Positions 7,465-45,558 of a DNA stretch of 64,000 nt are shown here, piece after piece; within the stretch, counting starts at the first letter, position 1; every line of letters starts with the position of its first letter. A program made the translations under genes and the position numbers. Origin of the DNA: Pseudomonas viridiflava (GTDB taxonomy: Bacteria; Pseudomonadota; Gammaproteobacteria; Pseudomonadales; Pseudomonadaceae); assembly GCF_900580675.1 (NCBI RefSeq), contig NZ_UTBG01000186.1, positions 248,001 to 312,000 on the forward strand, given 5' to 3'. The notes under the pieces are model-generated. The model worked only from the letters and a program-made list of their open reading frames with translations, ran no database searches and had not been told where the DNA came from.

Positions 7465-8684
7465 TGAGCGACATTATCCGCCGCGACCCACGGGCCGAAT
7501 GGATCGCCCGCAACCGCCTGCACCCGCTGCATGCGGCGATGCAGCCGGTGCAGCACAGCTGGATGGGGCCCAATGGGGTCATCCGCAAAAATGTACATGG
7601 CGTCGGTTTTATCGGCCCCAACGGCATCAAGCGCATCGACCGCAGCGGTGCCCAGCAGGGCGGCGCGGCCAAACGTTCGGCGGCAGTGGAAGTGCAGTTG
7701 CCGCTGCATCAAGTACCGGCGCCTGCGTTCTACATCAACGTGGTGCCCGACATGGTTGGCGGCCGCCTGAGCAGCCACGACCGCGACCTACTGGGGCTGG
7801 CGCGCCAGTTGGCCGGCAGCGACGGCGCGGTGCTGGCGGTGGTGTTTGGCGAACACAAGGAAGGTGCGTTTGCCACGGCGGGCGTGGATCGCCTGCTGGT
7901 GCTGGAAGGCCATGAATTCGAAGGTTATGCACCGGAACAACGGGTCCAGGGCCTGCGGGCTGTGGATAACCAGTTCAACCCGCGCCACTGGTTGCTGCCC
8001 GATAGCCGCAGCGGCGGCGGCGAACTTGGGCGGCGTTTTGCCGCGAGCCTCAAGGAACGCCCGGCCACGCGAGTCTGGCAGATCAAGGGTCAGGAGTGCA
8101 TCGGCCGCGCCGGTGCGGGCCAGGAAGATTTGGCCCGGCCGCTGCCGCGCCTGATCCTGGCCGCTGCCGAGTGTGCCGAGCCGGTCAGCGAGACTCGCCA
8201 CGAAGTCTTGCCGGTGGAGTTATCCACAAGCCTGGCGCGCAGCCTGCCGCGTATCGAAGATCTGGGCGCGGTGGCGGTCGACCCGGCAGCGATCCCAATG
8301 GCCGAGGCCGAGTTTATTTTCTCCGGCGGCAATGGCGTGAAGGACTGGGCACTGTTCCACCAGGCCGCCGCTGCCTTGGGCGCCACCGAAGGCGCCTCGC
8401 GGGTAGCGGTGGACGACGGCTACATGGCGCGTGATCGCCAGGTCGGCGCCAGCGGCACCTGGGTCACGGCGCGGGTGTATGTGGCCGTGGGCATTTCCGG
8501 GGCGATCCAGCACCTGCAGGGCATCGGCGCCTGCGACAAGGTGGTGGCGATCAACCTCGACCCGGGCTGCGACATGATCAAGCGTGCCGACCTGTCGGTG
8601 ATCGGCGAAAGCGCCGCGATTCTGCAAGCCTTGATCGATGCGGTCGAGTTGTACCGCAACGGCGCCAAGCGCGATGCGGCTTAA
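7464..8684 (+). CDS. etfA: Electron transfer flavoprotein alpha subunit, betaine-cluster type
   Basis: This 406-residue EtfA has an extra N-terminal segment of about 85 residues (WMGPNGVIRKNVHGVGFIGPNG) before the usual alpha/beta domain. The conserved C-terminal FAD-binding domain contains VGASGTWVTARVYVAVGISGAIQH and AINLDPGCDMIKRADLSVIG. It forms a heterodimer with the next gene product and probably accepts electrons from DgcA/DgcB. It is distinct from the housekeeping EtfA and corresponds to PA5400. Its ATG overlaps the dgcB stop by one base. Confidence 0.9.
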   Translation: MSDIIRRDPRAEWIARNRLHPLHAAMQPVQHSWMGPNGVIRKNVHGVGFIGPNGIKRIDRSGAQQGGAAKRSAAVEVQLPLHQVPAPAFYINVVPDMVGGRLSSHDRDLLGLARQLAGSDGAVLAVVFGEHKEGAFATAGVDRLLVLEGHEFEGYAPEQRVQGLRAVDNQFNPRHWLLPDSRSGGGELGRRFAASLKERPATRVWQIKGQECIGRAGAGQEDLARPLPRLILAAAECAEPVSETRHEVLPVELSTSLARSLPRIEDLGAVAVDPAAIPMAEAEFIFSGGNGVKDWALFHQAAAALGATEGASRVAVDDGYMARDRQVGASGTWVTARVYVAVGISGAIQHLQGIGACDKVVAINLDPGCDMIKRADLSVIGESAAILQALIDAVELYRNGAKRDAA

Positions 8685-8694
8685 GGATATGGCC

Positions 8695-9465
8695 ATGACC
8701 ACGAATGTAATCAGCCTGGTGTCCATCGGTGCCCACCCGACGTCCGGCCGGCCACGCCGCGCCGAGCAAGACGCGCGCGCCGTCGAACTGGGCCTGCAAA
8801 TGGCAGGGGATAAGTTGCAGGTGCTGCACGCCGGCGACATCCACGAGCCGACCTTGCGCAGCTACCTGGGCATGGGCTTGCCGCAGTTGCATGTGCTGGA
8901 ACAGCCGGCGGGCAGCGATGCCTTGCCGGTGCTCAGCGACTACCTGCGCGAGGCCGGTGCCCACGTGGTGCTTACCGGCAGCCAGGCGGAAACCGGCGAA
9001 GGCTCGGGCATGCTGCCATTCCTGCTGGCCGAGCAGCTGGGCTGGCCGCTGATCGTCGGGCTGGCGCACGTGGAGTCCATCGACGGCGGCGTGGCTCATG
9101 TGCTGCAAGCCTTGCCCCGTGGTCAGCGGCGCCGCCTGAAAGTGCGCCTGCCGTTTCTGGCGACTGTGGATAACGCCGCGCCCAAGCCACGGCAAAGCGC
9201 CTATGGCCCGGCGCAACGCGGTGAACTCGCGGCGCATGAGGTGGCGATCGAAGAAGATGAGTTATTCACAGGCGCGCTGTTGCAACCGGCCAAGCCTCGG
9301 CCCAAGCGCCTCAAGGTGATCAAGGCCAAGAGCGGCGCTGACCGCATGAAGGCCGCGACGGCCAAGGCCAGCGGCGGCGGAGGGCAGGTGCTCAAGGGGC
9401 TTAGCCCGGAAGACGGTGCCCAAGCCATTCTCAAGCTGCTCATAGAAGAAGGCGTCGTACGCTAA
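8695..9465 (+). CDS. etfB: Electron transfer flavoprotein beta subunit, betaine-cluster type
   Basis: The 256-residue product matches EtfB, with an ISLVSIGAHPTSGRPRRAEQDARAVELGLQ start, a VVLTGSQAETGEGSGMLPFLLAEQLGWP core and a lysine-rich C-terminal arm (PKRLKVIKAKSG). It pairs with the preceding EtfA. Two ATG codons are possible (8689 and 8695); the second sits seven bases after AAGGA and is preferred. It is the last gene of the dimethylglycine operon and is followed by a hairpin with a T run. Confidence 0.88.
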   Translation: MTTNVISLVSIGAHPTSGRPRRAEQDARAVELGLQMAGDKLQVLHAGDIHEPTLRSYLGMGLPQLHVLEQPAGSDALPVLSDYLREAGAHVVLTGSQAETGEGSGMLPFLLAEQLGWPLIVGLAHVESIDGGVAHVLQALPRGQRRRLKVRLPFLATVDNAAPKPRQSAYGPAQRGELAAHEVAIEEDELFTGALLQPAKPRPKRLKVIKAKSGADRMKAATAKASGGGGQVLKGLSPEDGAQAILKLLIEEGVVR

Positions 9466-9471
9466 CAAAAT

Positions 9472-9501
9472 GTGGGACGGGGCTTGCCCCTCCCACTTTT
9501 T
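9472..9501 (+). terminator. Probable intrinsic terminator of the dgc-etf operon
   Basis: The hairpin GTGGGACGGGG-CTTG-CCCCTCCCAC, with one bulged base, is followed by TTTTTACT. It looks like a half-REP turned into a terminator, seven bases after the etfB stop. Confidence 0.75.
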
Positions 9502-9525
9502 ACTCACAATGCCTGTGAGCCTGCA

Positions 9526-9600
9526 TGTGGATAAGATGTTTGCTACCTGCTACAAGCCACGTAGATAAAGGCTTGTAGAGTTTTGTTTAAAAAGTGATCA
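9526..9600 (+). repeat. DnaA-box/hairpin/TGATCA element, copy A
   Basis: A perfect DnaA box (TGTGGATAA, 9526-9534) is followed by a perfect 9-base-pair stem, CTACAAGCC (9550-9558) with GGCTTGTAG (9570-9578), and then TGATCA (9595-9600). Offsets from box start to left arm, left arm to right arm and right arm to TGATCA are 24, 20 and 25. The copy near 44.6 kb has exactly the same offsets. It lies in the gap between the convergent genes etfB and gbcA. Confidence 0.7.
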
Positions 9601-9707
9601 ATTCTGCCTTTTTCCCTCAATATCCCTCTGAAACCCTCGGTTTTACTAATCCGCGCACGGTTTTCCACAGCGCTGCCAAAGTTGCCCCCAAAGTCTGTTG
9701 GCGCTTC

Positions 9708-9771
9708 TGTGGATAAGGTGTTTGCGCTCCTCTGCAGGCTATGAAAACCGTGGCTTGCAGGCTTTTGATCA
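9708..9771 (+). repeat. DnaA-box/hairpin/TGATCA element, copy B
   Basis: A perfect DnaA box lies at 9708-9716. The left arm CTGCAGGCT (9732-9740) starts again 24 bases after the box start, and the right arm GGCTTGCAG (9752-9760) is again 20 bases further. The stem pairs with two G-U type wobbles. TGATCA (9766-9771) follows 14 bases after the right-arm start, an 11-base shortening compared with copy A. A one-mismatch box TTTTCCACA lies just upstream at 9661-9669. Confidence 0.65.
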
Positions 9772-9879
9772 AAAAACAACCAATAGAGGGTAAAACCCCT
9801 GACTTTGAATAAGTCACGGATTTTCTTGAGTTTATTTAGTGATAAACAAGCACTTGCCCACAATTGCTGTGGGTGGCTC

Positions 9880-9944
9880 TGTGGATAAGTTGTTGGGCGA
9901 AGGCTGGAGGGCAGGGCGGTAAAGGGTTGCAAAGGGGTTGATCA
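9880..9944 (+). repeat. DnaA-box/TGATCA element, degenerate copy C
   Basis: A perfect DnaA box (9880-9888) and TGATCA (9939-9944) are present with spacing close to copy B, but the hairpin arms at the matching positions (9904 and 9924) pair poorly. The rest of the 616-base gap 9466-10081 holds only this element family, the terminator and a REPIN; I see no gene in it. Confidence 0.5.
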
Positions 9945-9971
9945 ATTCTTGAACAATGTAGGGATCTAAAA

Positions 9972-10059
9972 GTGGGAGCGGGCTTGCTCGCGAAGGCGGT
10001 GTGTCAGTTGCCAGATGTGCTGGCTGATCCACTTCATTCGCCAGCAAGCCCGCTCCCAC
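9972..10059. repeat. REPIN between etfB and gbcA
   Basis: REP arms GTGGGAGCGGGCTTGCTCGCG (from 9972) and the inverted arm 10037-10059 (one difference) flank a 42-base spacer whose centre (GGTGTGTCAGT) resembles that of the 5401 REPIN. Confidence 0.93.
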
Positions 10060-10081
10060 ATTTTGATCTGTGGTGTAGCCG

Positions 10082-11377
10082 TTATTCGTGTACGGCCACG
10101 CCCTTGAGGTACGGCGCCGGTGCCGCCCCCAGGTTGCTCAGCATGCGTTCGCTGTACCAATCCACAAAGTTGACCACACCAAACTCATAAGTCTTGGAAT
10201 ACGGCCCTGGCTGGTACGCGGTGGAGTTGATGCCGCGCTGGTTCTCTTCGGCCAGGCGACGGTCCTGGTCGTTGGTGGCGTCCCACACCTTGCGCATGCG
10301 CTCGACGTCGTAGTCCACGCCTTCCACCGCGTCCTTGTGCACGATCCACTTGGTGGTGACCATGGTTTCCTGGGCGCTGATCGGCCACACGGTGAATACG
10401 ATGATGTGATCGCCCATGCAGTGGTTCCACGAGTGCGGCAAATGCAGGATGCGCATCGAGCCCAGGTCCGGGTTCTTGATGCGGCCCATCAGCTTGTTGC
10501 AGCCCTGCTTGCCGTCCAGGGTCATCGACACGGTGCCCTTGAGCAGCGGCATGCGCACGATGCGGTTGCGCAGGCCGAAGCTGGCGTGGGCGTAGGGGAT
10601 CTTCTCCGCGTCCCAGGCCGCGGCCGAGGCGGCGACGTGGTCCTTGAAGGCCTGGTCGGCGCGCGGGTCGGTGACGTCGTCCCATTCCAGCAGGGTTTTC
10701 AACAGCTCCGGGTGCGACGCGTTGCAGTGGTAGCACTCGCGGTTGTTTTCCAGCACCAGCTTCCAGTTGGCCTTTTCGAACAAGGTGGTCTGGATCGCCA
10801 CCTTGGTGTTCTCCATGTCGTACGGTTCCATGTAATGGTTCAGCGTCGACAGGAAGTCATCAATCGCCGGCGGGTTTTCCGACAGGCTGATGAAGATGTA
10901 GCCACCGGCGGTCTTCACGTTCACCGGTTTGAGGCCGTATTGCTTCATGTCGAAGTCGGCGCCCATCTCGGTGCCGGCGAACAGCAGGCGGCCGTCCAGC
11001 TCGTAGGTCCACTGGTGGTAGTGGCAGACCAGTTTGGCAACCTTGCCCTTGTCGCTGGTGCACAGGCGCGAGCCACGGTGGCGGCACACGTTGTGGAACG
11101 CATGCACCACACCTTCGGCGCCACGGATCACGATGATCGGGTTCTTGCCCACTTGCAGGGTCAGGTAGTTGCCCTTGGTGGGGATTTCGCAGGTCATGCC
11201 GGCGATCAACCACTCTTTCTGGAAAATCTCCTGCATGTCGATATCGAACAGCCGCTCATCAGAGTAGAACGGCTGCGGCAGCGAAAAGGTGCGCTCGCGC
11301 TCTTGCAGCATTTGCGCGGTGGCCTTGCGTGCGGGTTCCAGCGGATCGCCCAAGCTTAAGGTTGCGGTGACGTCCAT
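10082..11377 (-). CDS. gbcA: Glycine betaine demethylase oxygenase subunit GbcA (Rieske)
   Basis: GbcA is the Rieske non-haem iron monooxygenase that removes one methyl group from glycine betaine, giving dimethylglycine and formaldehyde. The 431-residue protein has the Rieske motif CRHRG...CHYHQW (CxH-x17-CxxH, around residues 95-120) and the mononuclear iron site region NNRECYHCNASHPEL. The start at 11377 gives MDVTATLSLGDPLE and is preceded by GAGGA at good spacing; an ATG 21 bases upstream is less likely. It is divergent from its reductase gene gbcB, across a 282-base control region, as in P. aeruginosa PA5410-PA5411. Confidence 0.94.
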   Translation of the reverse strand: MDVTATLSLGDPLEPARKATAQMLQERERTFSLPQPFYSDERLFDIDMQEIFQKEWLIAGMTCEIPTKGNYLTLQVGKNPIIVIRGAEGVVHAFHNVCRHRGSRLCTSDKGKVAKLVCHYHQWTYELDGRLLFAGTEMGADFDMKQYGLKPVNVKTAGGYIFISLSENPPAIDDFLSTLNHYMEPYDMENTKVAIQTTLFEKANWKLVLENNRECYHCNASHPELLKTLLEWDDVTDPRADQAFKDHVAASAAAWDAEKIPYAHASFGLRNRIVRMPLLKGTVSMTLDGKQGCNKLMGRIKNPDLGSMRILHLPHSWNHCMGDHIIVFTVWPISAQETMVTTKWIVHKDAVEGVDYDVERMRKVWDATNDQDRRLAEENQRGINSTAYQPGPYSKTYEFGVVNFVDWYSERMLSNLGAAPAPYLKGVAVHE

Positions 11378-11659
11378 CGTGTGTGTCCTCATGGCCATTC
11401 TGTGTGGCCGCGATAAGTGGCTGATCAGGTTTGCAGCAAGGCGTAAAGAAAGCGTCGTTGTTGGGAGCGAGTGTGGGGCCGCAGAACAGCAGAACCTTGT
11501 CCATTAACGACATGGCCCACTCTGATCCCGACGCGCAACCCCCGTGGTATGGGGGCTGGTCGCGATAAGTATGTGAATGTCGCAGATAGGTAAATGGGTG
11601 GTTCTCGCGTTACGCAGAATCGCCACCATAAGGCCGAACATCGGCGGTGGAGAATCAGC
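11378..11659. promoter_or_regulatory. Divergent gbcA/gbcB control region with repeated CGCGATAAGT
   Basis: The ten-base word CGCGATAAGT occurs twice, at 11407-11416 and 11561-11570. The second copy, extended TCGCGATAAGT (11560-11570), has a near direct repeat TCGCAGATAGGT (11580-11591) exactly 20 bases further on. Direct half-sites two helical turns apart are typical for AraC-family activators. In pseudomonads the AraC-type regulator GbdR activates gbcA and gbcB, so these are candidate GbdR sites. No GbdR gene is in the window. Confidence 0.45.
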
Positions 11660-43750: not shown

Positions 43751-43937
43751 ACTTGCGGTTGTGAAAATTAGACTAAATACGTCGTTTAGCGACCCACTTT
43801 GGTCGTACGGTCACAGCGGAGAACCGGATGTTCTCAAAAAACTATTGGATTGTTCCAGATAAATATAAAAATGGTACACGATTTGTTTTCGAGGGCTTGC
43901 GAGTCCACCTTATAGATTGAATTCAGAGGGCTTCGCC

Positions 43938-44450
43938 ATGGACCATCTTGTACTCACAATTATCGCCGCCGACAAACCCGGCCTGGTTGAACGCATCGCG
44001 CAGAACATTGCCGCGCATGGCGGCAACTGGCTGGAAAGCCGCATGGCCCATATGGCTGGGCAGTTTGCCGGAATTTTGCGCGTCAGCGTGCCTGGCGAAA
44101 GCCGTCAGGCCCTGGTGGCTGCACTTGAGGATTTATCCACACATGGCATTCGTGTGCTGGTGGCTGAGGGCAGTACCGGGCAGGCCGCGGCCTCCAAATC
44201 GATCATGATGACCCTGGTGGGCAATGACCGTGCGGGCATCGTGCGCGAAATCACGGCGCTGCTGAGCCAGCAAGGCGTGAACCTGGAAAGCCTGAGCACG
44301 GATGTGCGCCCGGCGCCCATGAGCGGTGATCCATTGTTTAGCGCCGAGGCGCTGTTGCGGGTGCCGGCGGCGTTATCCCTGGATACCTTGCAGCTGTCCC
44401 TCGAAACCCTGGCCGATGATTTGATGGTGGAACTGCACCACGAGGAATAA
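43938..44450 (+). CDS. gcvR: Glycine cleavage system transcriptional regulator GcvR-like (two ACT domains)
   Basis: The 170-residue protein consists of two ACT domains (LVLTIIAADKPGLVERIAQNIAAHGGNW and SIMMTLVGNDRAGIVREITALLSQQGVNLESL). In enterobacteria GcvR binds glycine and antagonises the activator GcvA. Many pseudomonad copies are annotated as glycine cleavage regulators without proof. The start at 43938 follows GAGGGCTTCGCC. It is divergent from glcB and converges on rarD. Confidence 0.8.
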   Translation: MDHLVLTIIAADKPGLVERIAQNIAAHGGNWLESRMAHMAGQFAGILRVSVPGESRQALVAALEDLSTHGIRVLVAEGSTGQAAASKSIMMTLVGNDRAGIVREITALLSQQGVNLESLSTDVRPAPMSGDPLFSAEALLRVPAALSLDTLQLSLETLADDLMVELHHEE

Positions 44451-44489
44451 TCGGCCCACAAGGTTATGCATGGAAATCTTGCATGGGCC

Positions 44490-44498
44490 TGTGGATAA
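44490..44498 (+). repeat. Isolated perfect DnaA box
   Basis: TGTGGATAA lies 112 bases before the box of copy D. No clear hairpin of the shared type follows it. A further box, TTATCCACA, lies inside gcvR at 44133-44141. Confidence 0.5.
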
Positions 44499-44601
44499 CC
44501 TGTAGAGACCCGGCGCCAGGCCACACCGGCCGGGCTTCTTCGCCAGCTGAGCAAAAAACGAGCAGTTTCAAGGGCTTGTGCACAAACGGCGGGGATGAGG
44601 C

Positions 44602-44676
44602 TGTGGATAACCATGGGGTGGATGTCTGCAAGCCAGGCTGGCCGTGGCTTGCAGGGCTTTGTACGTTATTTGATCA
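44602..44676 (+). repeat. DnaA-box/hairpin/TGATCA element, copy D
   Basis: A perfect DnaA box (44602-44610), a perfect stem CTGCAAGCCA (44626-44635) with TGGCTTGCAG (44645-44654) and TGATCA (44671-44676) are spaced 24, 20 and 25, identical to copy A 35 kb away. The third stem base pair is G-C here and A-T in copy A, a compensatory change. It lies between the convergent genes gcvR and rarD and touches the rarD stop codon. Confidence 0.7.
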
Positions 44677-45558
44677 GCGTTTGCGGACGGTCAGCCACGC
44701 GTCCAGGCTGTAGACCACCAGCCCCGCCCAGATGAACGCAAAGGCAATCAGCGTGCTTTGCGCCAAGTGCTCACCGAACAGCAGCACGGCTTCCAGCAGC
44801 ACCAGCGTCGGCGCCACGTACTGCAAAAAGCCCAGCGCGGTGTAGGGCAAGTGCCGTGCGGCGGCGTTGAAACACACCAGCGGGATCAGCGTGACCGGGC
44901 CCGCCGCGACCAGCCACCAGGCTTCGGTGGTGCTCCAGAATTCCAGCTGAGCGCTATGGGCCGACGGGTTGAACAGCAACCACGCCACGGCAATCGGCAC
45001 CAGCATCCAGGTTTCCACCACCAGCCCCGGCAGCGCCTTGACTGGCGCCTGCTTGCGGATCAACCCGTAGAAACCGAAGGTCAGCGCCAGCACCAGCGAC
45101 ACCCACGGCAAGCTGCCCACCTGCCACACCTGTTGCGCCACACCGACCGCCGCCAACCCTACGGCGAACCATTGCAAACGCCGCAGGCGTTCGCCGAGGA
45201 TCAGCATGCCCAGCAGCACATTCACCAGCGGGTTGATGTAGTAACCCAGGCTTGCTTCGAGCATGCGCCCGCTGTTCACCGACCACACGTAAGTCAGCCA
45301 GTTACCCGCAATCAACGAGCCGCTGAGCGCCAGGATCGCCAGGCGCTTGGGGTTGTCACGCAGCTCGCGGAACCAGCCTGGGTGTTTCCACACCATCAAC
45401 AGCAAACCGCCGAACAGCGCCGACCACAACACGCGGTGCACGATGATTTCGGCGGCGGGAACGCTGGCGATAGCCTTGAAATAAATGGGGAACAAACCCC
45501 AGATGACATAGGCGCTCAGGCCCAGAATGTAACCCTTGCGGGGGTTGGCGGCTTGCAT
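44674..45558 (-). CDS. rarD: RarD protein (EamA-family transporter)
   Basis: The 294-residue inner-membrane protein has about ten membrane segments and two EamA repeats. KGYILGLSAYVIWGLFPIYFKAI and VPAAEIIVHRVLWSALFG near the N-terminus are diagnostic of RarD. RarD-type proteins are drug/metabolite exporters; the substrate is not known. It is transcribed alone, opposite to gcvR. Confidence 0.92.
   Translation of the reverse strand: MQAANPRKGYILGLSAYVIWGLFPIYFKAIASVPAAEIIVHRVLWSALFGGLLLMVWKHPGWFRELRDNPKRLAILALSGSLIAGNWLTYVWSVNSGRMLEASLGYYINPLVNVLLGMLILGERLRRLQWFAVGLAAVGVAQQVWQVGSLPWVSLVLALTFGFYGLIRKQAPVKALPGLVVETWMLVPIAVAWLLFNPSAHSAQLEFWSTTEAWWLVAAGPVTLIPLVCFNAAARHLPYTALGFLQYVAPTLVLLEAVLLFGEHLAQSTLIAFAFIWAGLVVYSLDAWLTVRKR

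Follow-up and report, generated by a model that had tools for sequence, protein, structure and literature searches.

A repeated 103-bp DnaA-box module in Pseudomonas and its likeness to the DARS sites of Escherichia coli

Loci and anatomy of the module

The window, i.e., the whole stretch of 64,000 nucleotides of Pseudomonas viridiflava DNA that was analyzed, contains two intergenic gaps in which a DnaA-box element is repeated. The first gap (616 bp), which carries copies A, B, and C, is flanked by the genes for an electron transfer flavoprotein beta subunit (8638..9465, + strand, NF051844) and for the glycine betaine monooxygenase oxygenase subunit GbcA (10082..11398, - strand, NF058607). The second gap (223 bp), with copies D' and D, lies between a gene for a GcvR-like protein with two ACT domains (43917..44450, + strand, a weak NCBIfam match below cut-off) and that of the EamA transporter RarD (44674..45558, - strand), into the end of which copy D reaches by 3 bp, overlapping the stop codon. 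Both gaps separate convergent genes, as pointed out in an earlier note on this DNA, but convergent neighbors are not a rule, since two clusters of the element in genome G010 (L059 and L061) sit between tandem genes. The neighbors annotated at different clusters differ and show no common function.

The repeat element is a 103-bp module with a fixed geometry, larger than the earlier note had it. That note had correctly placed copies A, B, C, and D by their strong DnaA box (starting at 9526, 9708, 9880, and 44602), and the dyad arms could be read directly at +24 and +44; its inventory nevertheless overlooked a fifth copy, D' (strong box starting at 44490), and two further boxes at -26 and -12. 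The alignment of 98 of 106 matches (score of at least 20) on this strong box, hereafter box III, yielded a profile conserved from -28 to +75, with a reverse box I TTGCCCACA at -26, box II TGTGGANCC at -12, box III TGTGGATAA at 0, a weak forward box IV at +11, a 12-5-12 dyad CTGCAGGCCAYG-N5-CRTGGCCTGCAG at 24-52, and a 17-bp palindrome TGRTYR-WWWWW-YRAYCA at 58-74. In these multi-copy elements, boxes I, II, III, and IV match the DnaA consensus at a mean of 5.9, 4.6, 7.9, and 4.4 of 8 positions, respectively, versus 2.2 for control positions; box III is near perfect and box II poor (3 of 8 in copy B). The dyad arms were also considered as DnaA boxes and rejected by eye on the same profile.

All five copies of the window are on the + strand. 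Copy A (9498..9600) consists of box I TTACTCACA (9500-9508, reverse), box II TGTGAGCCT (9514-9522), box III TGTGGATAA (9526-9534), a weak box IV (9537-9545), the dyad (9550-9578), and a predicted Fis site GTTTAAAAAGTGATC (9585-9599) that matches the strict Fis consensus. Copy B (9680..9782) has box I TTGCCCCCA (9682-9690), the poor box II (9696-9704), box III (9708-9716), the dyad (9732-9760), and a Fis-like site GATCAAAAAACAACC (9767-9781). In copy C (9852..9955), box I TTGCCCACA (9854-9862), box II TGTGGGTGG (9868-9876), and box III (9880-9888) are followed by a degenerate dyad (9904-9932) and by a predicted Fis site GATCAATTCTTGAAC (9940-9954) shifted by +1. Copy D' (44462..44564) likewise has a degenerate dyad (44514-44542), together with box I TTATGCATG (44464-44472), box II (44478-44486), box III (44490-44498), and a Fis-like site GAGCAAAAAACGAGC (44549-44563). 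Finally, copy D (44574..44676) comprises box I TTGTGCACA (44576-44584), box II CGGGGATGA (44590-44598), box III (44602-44610), the dyad (44626-44654), and a Fis-like site GTACGTTATTTGATC (44661-44675).

The block at 58-74 fits the Fis consensus GnnYAnnnnnTRnnC with an A/T center, as given in two sources (PMC8682772, PMC4245941). In alignment A2, which holds 88 of the 94 matches that scored 24 or more (six, copy C among them, were left out for shifted or weak tails), the relaxed form of this consensus (Y/R at the inner half-site ends) was found in 84/88 copies and the strict form in 33/88, versus 30 and 5 of 6,864 control positions, in a set that was partly seeded by TGATCA. A Fis gene is present in the same genome (59% identity). 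The TGATCA of the earlier note is half of this predicted Fis-type site. Its offset from the start of box III is 69 in A and D, 58 in B, and 59 in C, which had been taken for a shortening of copy B by 11 bases, about one helical turn. Such a deletion is not required: since the two halves of the Fis-type palindrome lie at 58 and 69, with the perfect TGATCA as the first in B and as the second in A and D, the missing turn of copy B looks like a swap of the perfect half. TGATCA was also considered as an IHF site and rejected, as no IHF consensus was found in the 98 copies.

At the center of the Fis-type site (64-68; A2 columns 93-97), 31/88 copies are A-rich, 50/88 T-rich, and 7 mixed, and the orientation of the A-tract differs between copies. 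Just after copy C, an inverted repeat at 9963-10068, which we take to be a REP/REPIN-like sequence, has 45-nt arms (82% complementary), with a related 22-nt arm at 9466-9487. Weak Rfam miRNA matches over this repeat, far below gathering scores, are probably chance matches to the hairpin. Readings of the element as a mobile repeat of the REP/REPIN type and of the paired GATC as a SeqA/Dam target were also considered; to our knowledge, Pseudomonas has neither SeqA nor Dam.

Conservation and position around the origin

Further copies in related genomes, for which the earlier note had proposed a search, were found. The pattern TGTGGATAAN{38,66}TGATCA, which places TGATCA 47 to 75 bases from the start of a DnaA box, occurred in 25/25 genomes of the same genus (own genome included), where reversed-pattern controls gave 0, and in 30/38 genomes overall, with two control matches, both outside the genus. 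Among the matches listed, the TGATCA offsets pile up at 58 and 69, several copies having both. A first sequence-only model built from 54 copies gave nine matches at E ≤0.0012 in the own genome and 7 to 22 at E ≤0.1 in each of 11 others. Model R2, likewise sequence-only and built from the 88 Pseudomonas copies of A2, matched 296/298 genomes and all 19 of 19 genera of the family, with 4 to at least 13 matches per genome in the same genus and 0 to at least 13 in the other genera of the family; copy B was its best match in the own genome. Matches were found in 220/293 genomes of the order (13 of them from the family) and in 143/274 genomes of the class, mostly at 1 to 4, and up to 7, per genome outside the family.

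The only two family genomes with no R2 match (G078 and G090, 2/298) both belong to genus g26, with genomes of 1.9 to 3.3 Mb, and the other two sampled members of this genus had just 1 to 2 weak matches. A loss of the system in g26 is possible.

The geometry also emerged from an independent set of 122 copies from 117 of the 119 named loci listed, picked by box III and the left arm only (two matches at locus ends were left out). In this set, 109/122 copies had the reverse box at -26, against 14 copies at the next best offset, and 50/122 had TGTGG[AG] at -12, against 7 at the next best offset when box III is not counted. The Fis motif was at +59 in 118/122 copies in its relaxed form (12 at the next best offset) and in 53/122 in its strict form (5 at the next best offset). 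Among the matches listed, the named loci include Pseudomonas fluorescens, P. putida, P. fragi, P. viridiflava, Stutzerimonas stutzeri, and Denitrificimonas caeni. Two loci in bins labeled as unrelated bacteria (L167 and L178) had no box at -26, and their matches are probably due to chance.

A class-wide search was run with the exact box core only, so that neither the dyad nor the Fis part influenced the choice of copies, and gave 34 matches in 29/369 genomes of the class and 0 for the controls. A strict Fis site was present at 59-61 in 21 of these 34 copies, versus a mean of 0.3 per offset. Dyad positions were enriched singly (A28 23/34, C32 23/34, and T48 22/34), and a loose pair of dyad half-sites occurred at the right offset in 7/34 (mean, 0.2); the whole palindrome was not clear in this set, with GCC-N11-GGC in 2/34 and center 38 not among the best. 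Since the class-wide core-only copies keep the Fis site and not the dyad palindrome, the old part of the element would be the box core with the Fis site. The full dyad is clear in Pseudomonadaceae, partial in E. coli DARS1, and weak elsewhere.

The position relative to the origin, another point raised in the earlier note, was mapped in 10 of 11 genomes, those with a mapped dnaA (matches at E ≤1e-6; G001, in pieces, was left out, and only the chromosome contig of G023 was used). Within 1 Mb of dnaA lay 68/70 copies and 38/40 clusters, where 13.4 clusters were expected by chance, although the clusters are not independent since many are orthologous between genomes. Clusters of 1 to 4 copies are found on either side of dnaA, the closest at ~327 kb; 38/40 are at 0.33 to 1.0 Mb, and the two exceptions are at 2.1 and 2.4 Mb.

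On each chromosome arm of G003 to G023, most of the clusters closer to dnaA face away from it and most of those farther off face toward it, G003 departing from this pattern. Given the orthology, the orientation pattern may represent one inherited arrangement.

Likeness to E. coli DARS and nature of the dyad

The earlier note recognized no described family, a statement that fails since E. coli DARS1 has a matching box core and a matching inner dyad. The first three boxes of the module have relative offsets of -14/0/+12, the first one being reversed. In DARS1, TTATCCACT, TGTGGATAA, and TGTGTATTA are found at exactly -14/0/+12 (L119 2608/2622/2634), and the DARS2 region has this layout twice, with weaker boxes (L120 2636/2650/2662 and 2952/2966/2978). 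According to a review, DARS1 and DARS2 share the box spacing, with box I opposed to boxes II and III (PMC5742627). A consensus scan for the -14/0/+12 geometry ranked DARS1 and the two DARS2 placements as the top 3 of 424,530 in 212 kb of E. coli DNA. The same scan of the window ranked D, C, A, and D' first, with copy B at noise level (16 of 24). When 484 geometries were tried on the window, -14/+12 gave four triples scoring at least 18, versus a mean of 0.27; the four geometries that equal or beat it all use -26, and their placements are all inside A, C, D, and D'.

Moreover, R2 aligned with no gap to DARS1 over positions 2-85, dyad included (17.7 bits). DARS1 was its only match with E ≤10 in 212,503 E. 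coli bases at default filters (E 4.1e-4, or ~0.009 if scaled to a whole genome, the E-values of the model being rough). DARS2 was not found by R2 at default filters, and the unfiltered model gave only fragments there (9.9 and 9.1 bits). The inner six dyad pairs of DARS1, GCAAGC-N13-GCTTGC, have the letters, spacing, and offset of those in copy D, whereas its outer pairs are not formed (6/12 pairs only). A Fis motif in the register of the module is absent from both DARS1 and DARS2.

DARS1 (101 bp, upstream of uvrB) thus shares with the module the spacing and orientation of the three boxes, the inner dyad, a similar length, and an intergenic position, but it is a single locus in E. coli and has its perfect box as box II, whereas the Pseudomonas elements have many copies and a perfect box III. 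DARS2 (455 bp) shares the core geometry, and its Fis dependence, as described in PMC4245941, may have a counterpart in the Fis-type site of the Pseudomonas copies; in contrast, DARS2 needs IHF, has extra DnaA boxes, and shows no dyad in the register of the module. The intergenic location between oriC and ter that marks DARS is likewise seen for the Pseudomonas copies, both in the gaps of the window and in the mapped clusters. E. coli has two DARS, while Pseudomonas often has some ten copies, which flank the origin on either side. The DARS2 core is conserved among gammaproteobacteria related to E. coli (PMC4245941), DARS-like sequences are conserved in many proteobacteria (PMC10380432), and the head-to-head pair of boxes I and II is characteristic of and essential for DARS (PMC10380432).

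In addition to the multi-copy elements, the own genome carries a copy with a perfect core, TTATCCACA-5-TGTGGATAA-3-TGTGAACAG (G000:C91:9-, L111), in which boxes I and II are both perfect, the dyad is positioned as in the multi-copy elements, and the Fis-like site is at +60, one base on. By exact pattern, this copy was found in 10/36 genomes of the same genus (L303 to L312 loci included) and in 0/21 others, with a Fis-like site at 60 in 10/10. It lies ~2.0 to 2.1 Mb from dnaA in the three mapped genomes and adjoins an FKBP-type isomerase gene at the two loci examined. The perfect-core copy links the degenerate-box copies to a canonical DARS core.

The changes in the stems had been read in the earlier note as compensatory, with a structured RNA or cruciform part in mind. 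Pairing tests were carried out on 58, 54, and 88 copies. The 58-copy sample was drawn from 91 of the matches listed. Matches of other lengths had been omitted from these 91, and so had most of the orthologous copies of a coding-sequence match of length 75 and several matches of coding type at length 65; this choice of rows favors pairing, and the resulting raw covariation (z 5.8) was not relied on. With the 54-copy set (the 58 minus 4), 0/500 shuffles reached the observed percentage paired or covariation score and 20 to 21/500 reached the values for pairs and pair types. The positive raw covariation was discounted since the copies are related: once thinned to <65% identity (31 sequences), 0.530 of cells were paired versus 0.519 in shuffles (z 0.55), and at <60% identity (19 sequences), 0.513 versus 0.511. 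The Fis palindrome, taken as a pairing control, gave negative pairing. The stems therefore pair because the consensus is palindromic, and the apparent compensatory changes reflect this palindrome; an RNA hairpin is not supported, and the dyad is a putative DNA site.

Proposed function and alternative readings

There is strong support for the earlier view that the repeat is under selection and linked to replication as a DnaA element, and the analysis shows its fixed geometry, conservation, DARS1 homology, Fis-type site, and origin-flanking position. We consider it likely that the copies are multi-copy DARS-type sites, which would regenerate ATP-DnaA under Fis control, and the element probably helps to set the start of chromosome copying. 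In the proposed mechanism, boxes I and II, which are 14 bp apart, would hold DnaA in a head-to-head arrangement, and the complex would extend over box III (+12) and the weak box IV. As in E. coli, this arrangement would distort ADP-DnaA, resulting in the loss of ADP and the rebinding of ATP. The dyad, of the CTGCAGGCC-N11-GGCCTGCAG type, would probably be bound by DnaA itself or by a dimeric factor, and the predicted Fis site, which begins at +59 relative to the box III start, would probably couple the reaction to growth, as at DARS2. A replication fork would pass through the copies soon after initiation, doubling their reactivation capacity and helping to time the next round.

Several points argue against the DARS reading. 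Box II is weak, as its -12 motif is found in fewer than half of the independent copies, although boxes I and II form the essential pair in E. coli; R2 misses DARS2 at default filters, and the 98 copies are devoid of the IHF consensus while DARS2 needs IHF; DARS1 has a partial dyad and no in-register Fis motif, and the dyad is unclear in the class-wide set. The copies with a weak box II, if incapable of nucleotide exchange, may act as titration sites instead.

The weakness of box II in many copies makes passive titration the main rival. The strong box III would soak up DnaA near the origin and delay initiation, the DARS-like layout being inherited and the exchange lost. The contrast between boxes III and II and the many origin-flanking copies speak in its favor, as does the description, in PMC12371093, that DnaA boxes clustered toward oriC favor titration in E. 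coli. However, titration has no need of a fixed 103-bp spacing, a dyad, or a Fis site, all of which are kept across genera. We therefore regard titration, which the earlier note had put beside a replication-linked role, as rather unlikely and keep it as a rival only.

A datA-like site stimulating ATP hydrolysis by DnaA seems improbable. Like the module, E. coli datA is an intergenic DnaA-box cluster, its role is to control the nucleotide state of DnaA, and a cluster that lies in the origin half of the chromosome beside a site for a nucleoid protein would suit this reading; yet, as stated in PMC10380432, datA needs one IHF site, the consensus of which is lacking in the 98 copies, and the boxes are laid out as in DARS: the highest-scoring placement of this geometry at the datA locus has a poor box I and reaches 18 of 24, versus 22 for DARS1. 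It is about as hard to credit that the copies serve DnaA- and Fis-controlled regulation of neighboring genes: E. coli DARS1 overlaps a uvrB promoter, according to PMC6015884, and the clusters between tandem genes (L059 and L061) would fit, but the annotated neighbors vary, with no common function, and both window sites are between convergent genes. Finally, a structured RNA, cruciform, or terminator element is very improbable, for although A and D form perfect nine-pair stems and raw covariation exceeded that of shuffles, the excess is absent once relatedness is reduced, Rfam gave no match at the gathering threshold in the window, and the run at 64-68, where A and T are both accepted, is not a terminator T-run.

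Returning to DARS-type sites as the preferred reading, an extended hypothesis could be that DARS modules distributed as a belt on both flanks of oriC act as a position-coded, fork-dosage timer of ATP-DnaA regeneration in Pseudomonadaceae and that, in addition, the dyad, which is still present in the regulatory region of E. coli DARS1, is the site of a cofactor of DnaA reactivation that both Pseudomonas and E. coli have kept from their common ancestor. We put forward this combination tentatively, as a possibility with a limited chance of being right.

DARS itself is known; the part that appears new is a multi-copy DARS-type family in Pseudomonas, together with a dyad common with DARS1. In the literature searched on Pseudomonas DARS, DnaA-box clusters, and DnaA, oriC, or ChIP, we found no account of these elements, nor of a dyad common to the Pseudomonas copies and DARS1. 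An earlier mention is possible among the published DARS-like sequences of many proteobacteria, the source of which is reportedly Fujimitsu 2009.

If true, the DARS reading would identify the route of ATP-DnaA regeneration in Pseudomonas and would make DARS an old module (core and Fis site, with the dyad) of which one family has made many copies. Through the common inner dyad, there would be a concrete way to approach the ~50-bp regulatory region of DARS1, which, according to PMC5742627, enhances ADP release in vitro and has an undetermined role in vivo. Moreover, the similar distances of the clusters from the origin would make the timing idea directly testable.
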